From Caldicellulosiruptor changbaiensis (GTDB taxonomy: Bacteria > Bacillota > Thermoanaerobacteria > Caldicellulosiruptorales > Caldicellulosiruptoraceae), in NCBI RefSeq assembly GCF_003999255.1, contig NZ_CP034791.1, positions 1,528,501-1,592,500 on the forward strand: a DNA stretch of 64,000 nt, written 5' to 3'. The position numbers and the translations under genes were made by a program. A model generated the notes under the pieces. That model did not search any database. It saw only the letters and a program-made list of their open reading frames with translations, and was not told where the DNA came from. Positions 14,379 to 27,748 of the stretch are shown here, in pieces (positions within the stretch are counted from its first letter, which is position 1; each line of letters opens with the position of its first letter).

Positions 14379-14405
14379 TTAGCACTCTCATTTGATGAGT
14401 GCTAA
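14379..14405. promoter_or_regulatory. CIRCE operator
   Basis: A perfect TTAGCACTC (14379-14387), nine-base spacer and GAGTGCTAA (14397-14405): the consensus CIRCE inverted repeat bound by HrcA. It lies between the promoter and the hrcA ribosome-binding site, so it controls hrcA-grpE-dnaK. Confidence 0.97.
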
Positions 14406-14416
14406 TTCTAAGATAT

Positions 14417-14445
14417 AAGATATCACTTTAGTAGATAATTGTCAA
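14417..14445 (-). promoter_or_regulatory. Heat-shock operon promoter
   Basis: TTGACA (14445-14440) and TATCTT (14422-14417) are 17 bases apart on the minus strand, directly upstream of CIRCE. The start of transcription would fall at the edge of the operator, as expected for HrcA repression of a sigma-A promoter. Confidence 0.85.
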
Positions 14446-14473
14446 GTAGATTTTTTGACTTTCTTTGACCTTT

Positions 14474-23288: not shown

Positions 23289-23310
23289 GAGGCTTTTCTC
23301 TCATTCCTTT
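23279..23310. terminator. Convergent terminator overlapping both stop codons
   Basis: A 13-bp perfect stem, AAAGGAATGAGAG (23279-23291) with its complement at 23298-23310, around a 6-base loop and followed by T-runs. It contains the stop codons of the CBM-like gene (23286-23288) and of the Fur-family gene (23301-23303). Confidence 0.9.
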
Positions 23311-23744
23311 TTACACTCTTTGCAGATGCCATAGAATTTTACCATATGATTTATCACCTTAAATCCCTTTTTCTTTTCAATCTGCTCTTCTAAAGCCTCT
23401 AAAAGGTCGTCTTCTGCTTCTTCTACCCTACCACATTTGATACAAATCAAATGGTGATGGTTATGCGAATCTTCACTATTTGAAAGTTCAAACCGTGAAC
23501 ATCCATCGTCAAGGTCAATTTTATTGAGCACTTTTAAATCACTTAAAAGCATTATTGTTCTATACACTGTTGCCAGTCCTATTTCTGGCATCTTTTCTTT
23601 AACTATCCTATAAATTTCTTCTATACTCAGATGCTTATCTTGATTGTCCAAGATAGAATCAAGAATTATCCTCCTCTGTGTTGTTAGCTTATATCCCTTT
23701 TGTTTAAGTTGTTCTTTTATCTCCTCTAATTGATTTTTGCTCAT
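23301..23744 (-). CDS. Fur-family metal-responsive repressor
   Basis: A winged-helix N-terminal domain (TTQRRIILDSIL...GLATVYRTIMLLSDL) and a dimerisation domain with a His-rich metal site (DSHNHHH, about 92-98). Two CxxC pairs (Cys101/104 and Cys141/144) bind structural zinc. Its place downstream of feoAB and the Fur-type palindrome before feoA argue for Fur; PerR or Zur cannot be excluded by sequence alone. Upstream (23804-23813) lies a TTGAGAATAA half-site identical to half of the feo box, so autoregulation is plausible. Confidence 0.9.
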   Translation of the reverse strand: MSKNQLEEIKEQLKQKGYKLTTQRRIILDSILDNQDKHLSIEEIYRIVKEKMPEIGLATVYRTIMLLSDLKVLNKIDLDDGCSRFELSNSEDSHNHHHLICIKCGRVEEAEDDLLEALEEQIEKKKGFKVINHMVKFYGICKECKKE

Positions 23745-26145: not shown

Positions 26146-26170
26146 TTAATTGAGAATTATTCTCAATTAA
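26146..26170. promoter_or_regulatory. Fur-type operator before feoA
   Basis: A perfect 12-base inverted repeat (TTAATTGAGAAT and its complement) around one central base. The core TGAGAAT-n-ATTCTCA matches the 7-1-7 design of Fur/PerR boxes. It lies in the 337-base gap between feoA and the KaiC-like gene and probably controls feoA-feoB, and perhaps the divergent promoter as well. Confidence 0.88.
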
Positions 26171-26406
26171 ATGATATCAAATTTTTTCTAACAAGTCAAG
26201 CAAAATCTCAGAAGGTTTTCAGAATAAAGCTAAAAATCAAAGCTGTGAAAGAAAAGAGTAATTTTTCTCAATTTTTTAGCCATTTGACGCAAAATTTCGC
26301 AAATTTTGACCTTTTTTGACCTTGACAAAGTCTATATTTGTAATTATTTTTATAATTGGAAGAGTATATAATCCTCCTTTAATCAAAAAAAGGGGGGTGA
26401 AAAAAA
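26171..26406. promoter_or_regulatory. Upstream region of the KaiC-like operon with 19-bp palindrome
   Basis: A gene-free AT-rich stretch. It contains the palindrome CAAAATTT-CGC-AAATTTTG (26290-26308), four TTGAC motifs (26284, 26306, 26316, 26322), and TATAAT at 26351 and 26367. No -35/-10 pair has standard spacing. A very strong ribosome-binding site (AGGGGGGTG, 26391-26399) precedes the GTG start at 26407. Confidence 0.5.
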
Positions 26407-27303
26407 GTGAACAAAACAAGCAGTGAAGTACAAGCCACAGTAGATGCTGTAAAGCTCAAAGACCTGTCAAAGTCTGCACCAGAGCTGTTTGGAGTAAAAA
26501 CTGGAGTGGATGGCATAGATAAGCTTTTTTACAAGGCTGAATTTTCAAAAGAAACTGGCAAGCCTATGGTAAAACCACTTGGTGGAATTCCCGCGTATTC
26601 TGTTATAAACCTAAGTGGTGTTGCTGACACTGGGAAAAGTCTATTTGCTGAGCAGTTTGCTGTTACTCAAGCAAATGAAGGAAATAGCGTTCTTTATATC
26701 ACAGTCGAAACACCTGCGGAGTTTCTGTACTCTTCACTTCTTTCACGTGCTGCTGCCATGAACATTGACAAGTCAAAAGTTGAAGAAAATGTGTACATGC
26801 TTGACATTACCAAAGACTTTAATATCCGCGGTAACATAAATAACTTCATTAAGACAATAGAAAATGCAGCCACAAGATTTAATATAAAAAACGTGGTAAT
26901 TGACTCTGTTACAGGATTATTTGAATCAAAAGAGATTTACGCAAGAGAAATTGTGAGAACTATCTATAATTTTCTAAAATCAAAGAGACTCACAACCTTG
27001 ATGATTTCACAAAAGCGAAGCGGACAGGAACATCTCTCTGCTGAGGCTGCAGGCGGATATGCAGTAAGTCATATTGTTGATGGCACAATTGTATTTTCAA
27101 AACAAGTTATTATGAACAGGTTTGACAGCAGTACATTCAAAAGACCAATTGGTGATGTTATTCGTCTTTTGAGAGTTGATGGATGTAGAATGTGTGGCCA
27201 TGATTCAAAAACATATGTATTTGAGATTGAGCAAAACGGACTCATAAAGGTTCTGTACCCGCTCGGATATATAGCAGGCCAGCAAAAAGAAGACAAAGAA
27301 TAA
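26407..27303 (+). CDS. Single-domain KaiC-like RecA-superfamily ATPase
   Basis: A 298-residue protein with one KaiC domain. GVKTGVDGIDKLF starts the fold, Walker A is GVADTGKS (71-78), YITVETPAEF supplies the catalytic Glu region (about 97-106), and Walker B is NVVIDS (162-167). A late CRMC pair lies at 260-263. The circadian KaiC has two such domains and an EE pair, while here only one domain is present and the pair is ET. It resembles the archaeal single-KaiC families that occur beside a small 'near-KaiC' regulatory protein. The start is GTG 26407. It is followed 38 bases later by exactly such a small gene. No kaiA or kaiB is present, so I infer ATP-dependent signalling, not a clock. Confidence 0.88.
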   Translation: MNKTSSEVQATVDAVKLKDLSKSAPELFGVKTGVDGIDKLFYKAEFSKETGKPMVKPLGGIPAYSVINLSGVADTGKSLFAEQFAVTQANEGNSVLYITVETPAEFLYSSLLSRAAAMNIDKSKVEENVYMLDITKDFNIRGNINNFIKTIENAATRFNIKNVVIDSVTGLFESKEIYAREIVRTIYNFLKSKRLTTLMISQKRSGQEHLSAEAAGGYAVSHIVDGTIVFSKQVIMNRFDSSTFKRPIGDVIRLLRVDGCRMCGHDSKTYVFEIEQNGLIKVLYPLGYIAGQQKEDKE

Positions 27304-27341
27304 ATAAAGTAAATAAAATATACAAAAAAGGGGTGCAGGCC

Positions 27342-27704
27342 ATGAAAAGGATTGATTTGGTGCAGCAAAATATCGATGAGGTTATAAAACAAATTTTCTC
27401 AATTGCTATTGACATCTTGGGTGGACCAAGAAAGCTTGTTGAGTACAAAAGACTTACATGGCTTGCATCACTGATGGAAGCTATTTTTGTCATTTACCTT
27501 CACAGTGAAGAAAACCAATCAGCAGACGAGATTGCTGAATTTTTGGGAATTAGCACTCAAACAACAAAAGCAATTTTGCAGAGCAAGCCTGAATATGCAA
27601 AGAGCAAGCTTAAAAGTGGTGACAGCGCTGAAAAAACTCATATTGCAGGTGGTATTGCAAAACTTGCATACAAGACATGGAAGGAAAGCCAAAGTGGAAA
27701 ATAA
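27342..27704 (+). CDS. Small HTH protein partnered with the KaiC-like ATPase
   Basis: A 120-residue protein, starting at ATG 27342 with GGGGTG six bases upstream (an in-frame GTG lies within that site). The block LTWLASLMEAIFVIYLHSEENQSADEIAEFLGISTQTTKAILQS reads as a helix-turn-helix. It resembles the KaiC-associated regulatory domain that I recall being described mainly from archaea. The C-terminus (AEKTHIAGGIAKLAYKTW) is helical. It probably binds DNA or transmits the ATPase state to another partner. The two genes end at a strong terminator, so they form a complete bicistronic unit. Confidence 0.75.
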   Translation: MKRIDLVQQNIDEVIKQIFSIAIDILGGPRKLVEYKRLTWLASLMEAIFVIYLHSEENQSADEIAEFLGISTQTTKAILQSKPEYAKSKLKSGDSAEKTHIAGGIAKLAYKTWKESQSGK

Positions 27705-27748
27705 AAAACGGCTCTATGCAGAGACTGCGTAGAGCCGGAATTTTTTTA
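27704..27748. terminator. Bidirectional terminator after the KaiC-like operon
   Basis: A 13-bp stem with one G-T pair: CGGCTCTATGCAG (27709-27721) with CTGCGTAGAGCCG (27725-27737) and a 3-base loop. T-runs follow on both strands, so it serves cysK as well. Confidence 0.92.

Follow-up and report, generated by a model that had tools for sequence, protein, structure and literature searches.

A terminated two-gene unit

The window, that is, the whole stretch of DNA that was analysed (64,000 nucleotides), belongs to a complete bacterial genome of 2.9 Mb. On its plus strand, a gene for a single-domain KaiC-like ATPase of the RecA fold (26407 to 27303, 298 amino acids, GTG start) is followed 38 nucleotides downstream by the gene of a 120-amino-acid HTH protein (27342 to 27704). 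An intrinsic terminator at 27709 to 27737 on the same strand, with a 13-bp stem holding 8 G-C pairs and a T tail, ends the unit, in agreement with the strong terminator of the preliminary description. The pair is preceded by a sigma-A-type promoter (26322 to 26350, plus strand; -35 box TTGACA, 17-nucleotide spacer, -10 box TATTTT, 10 of 12 matches), the -35 box of which abuts a CtsR-type heat-shock operator on the minus strand (26305 to 26321).

The genes feoA and feoB lie upstream of the pair in divergent orientation, as had been described. As a meaningful context, however, iron uptake did not stand: of 11 sister genomes, three have feoB beside the ATPase gene, and we rejected the link because feoB is no conserved neighbour. 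Upstream of feoAB (26146 to 26170), a perfect palindrome of 25 bp, TTAATTGAGAATTATTCTCAATTAA, resembles a Fur box, and a fur-like gene is located at 23301 to 23744. Two other contexts were rejected: a phage origin of the locus, for which no match was found among phage records, and a role in anti-phage defence, for which PADLOC gave no match.

The ATPase, a single KaiC domain

In an NCBIfam profile search, the ATPase matched TIGR03878 (thermo_KaiC_2) with 422.7 bits for a cut-off of 232.2, over positions 1 to 258 of 259, and it is thus a member of a catalogued family that has no assigned function. The Pfam KaiC profile (PF06745) found one domain, with 172 bits. Scores against TIGR03877, TIGR03880 and TIGR03881 were all far under the cut-offs, and the protein belongs neither to the RadA and RadB models (17 to 27 bits, cut-offs 172 to 403) nor to the two-domain clock KaiC (circ_KaiC, 38 bits, cut-off 546).

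Both nucleotide-binding motifs can be read from the sequence: Walker A, GVADTGKS, at residues 71 to 78 (26617 to 26640, plus strand), and Walker B, with D166, at residues 162 to 167 (26890 to 26907, plus strand). Within an alignment of 98 relatives, G71, D74, G76 and K77 of Walker A are invariant or nearly so, and D166 and S167 of Walker B are each found in 98 of 98. The single KaiC domain with intact Walker motifs that had first been proposed is therefore borne out by PF06745, TIGR03878 and the alignment alike. The same alignment revealed a C-terminal signature, RxDGCRxCGHD (residues 256 to 266; 27172 to 27204, plus strand), which marks this KaiC subfamily: R256, G259, R261 and H265 are present in all 98 relatives, D258 in 97 and D266 in 95. 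The AlphaFold2 model of the protein has the RecA/KaiC fold (pLDDT 90.8), and the closest structures retrieved with Foldseek are PH0284, PH0186, KaiC and SSO2452.

Does the protein work as KaiC does? One scenario is a clock-like timer, or else a signalling hub of the archaeal type that was brought in as a whole, with autophosphorylation in the manner of KaiC. Membership of the KaiC domain family is in keeping with it, as is the hub role proposed for other archaeal KaiC-like proteins in work that PMC5847659 cites. Yet the protein has a single domain, neither kaiA nor kaiB was found among the ORFs and Pfam matches around the ATPase gene (the absence had been pointed out before), and a CtsR-type control would be a simpler input. 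Moreover, the KaiC phosphosites align to S221, which is variable, and to H222, which is a histidine in 98 of 98 relatives, rather than to a Ser/Thr pair; a KaiC-type phospho-clock is therefore unlikely, and we give this scenario very little credit.

The HTH partner and the conservation of the pair

The second protein is a full match to TIGR03879 (near_KaiC_dom; 124.6 bits, cut-off 65.1), a family whose members stand beside a KaiC-like gene, as here. TIGR03879, like TIGR03878, is catalogued with no function assigned, as had been said of the KaiC-like proteins of such pairs; the profile searches proposed at the outset thus placed both proteins above the family cut-offs. Our partner is a short form: in an alignment of 74 partners, most archaeal ones carry a C-terminal extension of about 80 amino acids that these 120 residues do not include. 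AlphaFold2 predicts for it an HTH made of helices alone (pLDDT 85.2), so that profile and model agree with the initial assignment of a 120-residue HTH protein downstream of the ATPase. The fold search gave weak generic HTH matches, none with E < 0.001, and no specific structural relative. The HTH segment of the partner (P0002, residues 56 to 80) matches 25 residues of the PDB 8vd6 chain 'CAP REPEAT' with an E of 6e-9, far better than all other PDB chains.

All 12 genomes of the genus carry the ATPase, each with the partner adjoining. When 84,980 species genomes were scanned, 80 loci of relatives were obtained. They belong to many archaeal and bacterial groups, mainly from hot habitats, and the view of the pair as mainly archaeal is too narrow, as many hot-habitat bacteria have it too. 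The partner is adjacent (within 100 nucleotides) in 63 of the 80 loci and lies within 1.3 kb in 5 more. The ATPase and the HTH partner are thus a co-conserved unit, a point on which the preliminary description would have fallen had the two genes drifted apart. Where the partner was missing at the locus, five genomes were checked: it was encoded elsewhere in G423, G425, G599 and G600, and G428 had none. The ATPase is also encoded in six other genomes of Bacillota, which contained, genome-wide, no partner above the TIGR03879 cut-off, and we conclude from them that the ATPase can occur alone.

Several loci depart from the common arrangement. An insertion of 1.1 to 1.3 kb separates the two genes at four loci from a single archaeal clade (L026, L028, L029 and L030, from Geothermarchaeota, Nitrososphaeria and Thermoprotei MAGs). 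In the six Bacillota (L011 and L021 to L025), the partnerless ATPase gene was seen by eye to adjoin unrelated genes, such as smpB, rnr, rpe and others. A second near_KaiC branch, represented by L165 and L166 (176 to 181 amino acids, with a coiled coil), is encoded directly downstream of a different KaiC-like ATPase of 240 amino acids, in archaeal genomes that bear the reverse gyrase gene, rgy, and have no TIGR03878 protein. Among plasmids of the collection searched, the pair is present only on the 918-kb plasmid of Thermomicrobium roseum (L184, NC_011961.1), where no rgy was found in the 16.8 kb that were inspected.

A heat-shock operator at the promoter

The box in front of the pair reads GGTCAAA-AAA-GGTCAAA on the minus strand and TTTGACC-TTT-TTTGACC on the plus strand. 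It matches exactly the CtsR operator consensus, which PMC12634643 gives as A/GGTCAAA-NAN-A/GGTCAAA, and its two heptanucleotides in tandem lie at the core promoter, as expected of an operator of the CtsR regulon. The -35 box is kept in 12 of 12 genomes of the genus, and so is the CtsR-type box, which is exact in 5 and has one change in 7.

The window contains two exact boxes of this kind, against 0.01 expected by chance, and a 392-kb sample of this genome contains none. The other exact copy in the window, at 14454 to 14470 on the minus strand, is located upstream of hrcA-grpE-dnaK-dnaJ, which indicates that the box is a heat-shock element in this genome. Across 20 kb in each of 11 sister genomes, all boxes with at most one mismatch were at the ATPase gene (11 of 11) or at hrcA (3 of 3 where that gene lay in the stretch). 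From these sequences, we infer that the pair is under CtsR-type heat-shock control. A perfect CIRCE (14379 to 14405) stands beside the CtsR-type box of hrcA-grpE-dnaK-dnaJ, and the combination of the two elements in that promoter (14379 to 14470) suggests dual heat-shock control of the chaperone operon.

A 19-bp palindrome upstream of the pair had been singled out earlier as a candidate binding site. It does exist (26290 to 26308, 8-nucleotide arms around a 3-nucleotide centre, A/T-rich) and partly overlaps the CtsR-type box, but an alignment of the 12 upstream regions led us to reject it as an operator: among the 11 sister genomes it is conserved only in the 99% identical G011. It is probably not functional.

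Origin of the pair

The closest relatives of the ATPase are archaeal, with 50 to 56% identity (56% for the top ones, from Geothermarchaeota and Nitrososphaeria), for 41 to 44% with the other Bacillota homologues. ATPase trees place the genus within an archaeal clade (SH-aLRT 98 in one, UFboot/SH-aLRT 100/97 in another), as does a tree with the partner concatenated (98/97). The AU test, however, rejected neither the union of the genus with other Bacillota (p = 0.24) nor its union with pair-bearing bacteria (p = 0.27), and an acquisition from archaea, as originally suggested, is for this reason likely rather than established. In the rgy tree, the genus is sister to G023 with a support of 100, and the ATPases of the two fall in different branches. 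Should the ATPase tree be correct, the ATPase would have been gained separately by two lineages whose rgy genes are sisters, a deduction that the AU result makes less certain.

Association with reverse gyrase

We clustered the neighbour families across the 80 ATPase loci. A single family recurs beyond one close lineage, and it is reverse gyrase (TIGR01054, 1156 bits). Reverse gyrase winds DNA and is the hallmark enzyme of hyperthermophiles; to our knowledge, how cells control it, and with which helper proteins, is largely open.

The two genes co-occur closely. Among the 37 genomes of our own class, 13 have both ATPase and rgy, 24 have neither and none is discordant; in one genus, with ten genomes, a single genome carries either gene, and it carries both. 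A Bacillota sample of 399 genomes gave 9 with both, 3 with the ATPase only and none with rgy only. The archaeal phylum of G426 (158 genomes) has 24 with both, 2 with the ATPase only, 4 with rgy only and 128 with neither; that of G597 (176 genomes) has both in the same 9 genomes, one of the nine ATPase genes being split over two contigs, and neither in 167. Fisher tests, which do not correct for kinship, gave p values of 1e-10 to 1e-22. Growth temperature confounds the co-occurrence of the two genes, but does so without accounting for operon structure.

Such structure is seen in many archaea, where rgy adjoins the pair with ORFs that overlap or nearly touch, and in more than one order of genes. 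In all 9 genomes of the phylum of G597, rgy comes immediately after the pair and on its strand; the same holds for ten loci on named contigs, at which partner and rgy are separated by -8 to +33 nucleotides. The order is kaiC-HTH-rgy with overlapping ORFs in G577, and rgy-kaiC-HTH in G581; in G472 and G558 the pair and rgy are convergent, about 2.6 kb apart. Within the phylum of G426, ATPase and rgy are at most 10 kb apart in 6 of 24 genomes, for 0.27 expected. The pair-linked rgy genes fall in several distinct branches of the rgy tree. Three of the reverse gyrase ORFs (L146, L147 and G443:C42:6286-10305) are 1566 to 1628 amino acids long, some 500 more than usual, and probably contain inteins.

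The association is not obligatory, since the pair exists without rgy in several bacteria and rgy without the ATPase in three controls. Among the named-contig genomes with the ATPase, rgy is present in 59 of 80 and none was seen in 21. Many of the latter are incomplete MAGs, but a complete genome of Bacteroidetes is among them, as are two bins of Rhodothermus; pair carriers devoid of rgy are chiefly bacteria. The controls Thermotoga maritima, Methanocaldococcus jannaschii and Sulfolobus acidocaldarius possess rgy and no TIGR03878 protein above the cut-off. In our genome, rgy is about 159 kb from the pair, so that the two are not physically linked, and no CtsR-type box was found at its locus. 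The operon had been called self-contained; it is a terminated two-gene unit indeed, but not one that stands alone functionally, for its operator is of the type found at the dnaK operon, and its distribution follows that of reverse gyrase.

What could such a pair do? A general thermal-stress transcription switch is one option: the HTH protein would be the regulator and the KaiC-like ATPase an ATP-dependent sensor, while the rgy link would reflect no more than shared hot habitats, or the control of a broader regulon to which rgy belongs in certain lineages. The designation of TIGR03879 as a 'probable regulatory domain', the likeness of the partner's HTH to those of regulators, sigma-70 region 4 included, the predicted CtsR-type control and the pair-bearing bacteria without rgy all fit this option. 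It does not readily explain the tight pair-rgy operons, which have overlapping ORFs and occur in two gene orders and in separate lineages of archaea, or the perfect match with rgy in a class where 24 genomes have neither, and we hold it to be rather unlikely.

Another option is that the ATPase, similar to a RadA/RecA paralogue such as SSO2452, assists recombination or repair when the cell is hot, the HTH protein serving as a DNA tether and reverse gyrase being linked through the repair of hot DNA. The KaiC-like proteins of RecA fold that Foldseek retrieved, SSO2452 among them, and the weak Rad51/RadA/RadB profile matches, agree with it. The best matches are nevertheless KaiC-like rather than RadA, the remaining frequent neighbour families comprise no recognisable repair genes, and the CtsR regulon is generally concerned with proteostasis and not with DNA damage. 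This option seems to us improbable.

A proposed heat-inducible module working with reverse gyrase

In the reading that we prefer, and hold to be somewhat more probable than its negation, the two genes form a thermophile module, induced by heat, whose ATPase and HTH protein work together with reverse gyrase, in other words on the topology or integrity of DNA at elevated temperature. The KaiC-like protein would be an ATP-driven switch of the RecA fold, which by its fold may assemble into a ring, and the co-conserved HTH protein its putative DNA-binding partner, possibly in a complex with it. The CtsR-type operator before the -35 box would keep the operon low until heat stress lifts the repression, as for the dnaK operon. 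Once induced, the pair would most likely bind DNA via the HTH protein, and its ATP turnover may adjust the action of reverse gyrase, perhaps by direct contact, or the expression of rgy, or the state of hot DNA.

Two published observations are of interest here. In Pyrococcus furiosus, PF1931, classed only as a KaiC-domain protein, and PF1932, a predicted regulator, are heat-shock-induced targets of Phr (PMC10746257), and we count this heat induction in favour of a heat-inducible module. For Dictyoglomus, PMC5167688 describes close linkage of the rgy cluster with dnaK/dnaJ. Several facts speak against a module tied to reverse gyrase: the 21 of 80 genomes without rgy, the three controls with rgy only, the distance of about 159 kb to a boxless rgy locus, the partnerless Bacillota and the confounding by temperature.

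A bolder version, possible but in our opinion doubtful, is that archaea and bacteria alike use the pair, driven by ATP, specifically to assist or regulate reverse gyrase, and that this genus put it under CtsR heat-shock control. If it were true, the capacity to overwind DNA would become part of the heat-shock response. More generally, the association with rgy gives a hitherto unexplained pair of thermophiles a first testable function: the rgy operons of several archaeal lineages, the class-wide match and the bacterial heat-shock operator turn the control of reverse gyrase and the function of KaiC-like proteins into experimental questions, and genetic tools exist for Caldicellulosiruptor.

Comparison with known systems

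The pair itself was already known, though uncharacterised; what is new here is the heat-shock operator and the association with reverse gyrase, the priority of the latter not being certain. In the literature that was covered, of which the principal overview of KaiC-like ATPases in archaea was not part, a single paper names both reverse gyrase and KaiC, and it leaves them unconnected. TIGR03878 is defined as a hypothetical equivalog without function, and its definition includes neither the CtsR operator nor the reverse gyrase link. The HTH protein differs from TIGR03879 as catalogued by its short form.

With cyanobacterial KaiC, the ATPase has in common the RecA-fold KaiC domain and its Walker A and B motifs. 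KaiC, in contrast, has two such domains, phosphosites and the partners KaiA and KaiB, against one domain, non-conserved phosphosites and no KaiA or KaiB for the ATPase. The archaeal single-domain KaiC-like proteins PH0284, PH0186 and SSO2452 (2dr3, 2zts and 2w0m) share its fold, with TM-scores of 0.78 to 0.86 on target length, but belong to other subfamilies, with 21 to 26% identity.

As to the CtsR regulon, the passages of PMC12634643 that were covered name no KaiC-like gene as a target; the operators of that regulon have the same consensus, and the same position adjoining the -35 box, as the operator predicted for the pair.
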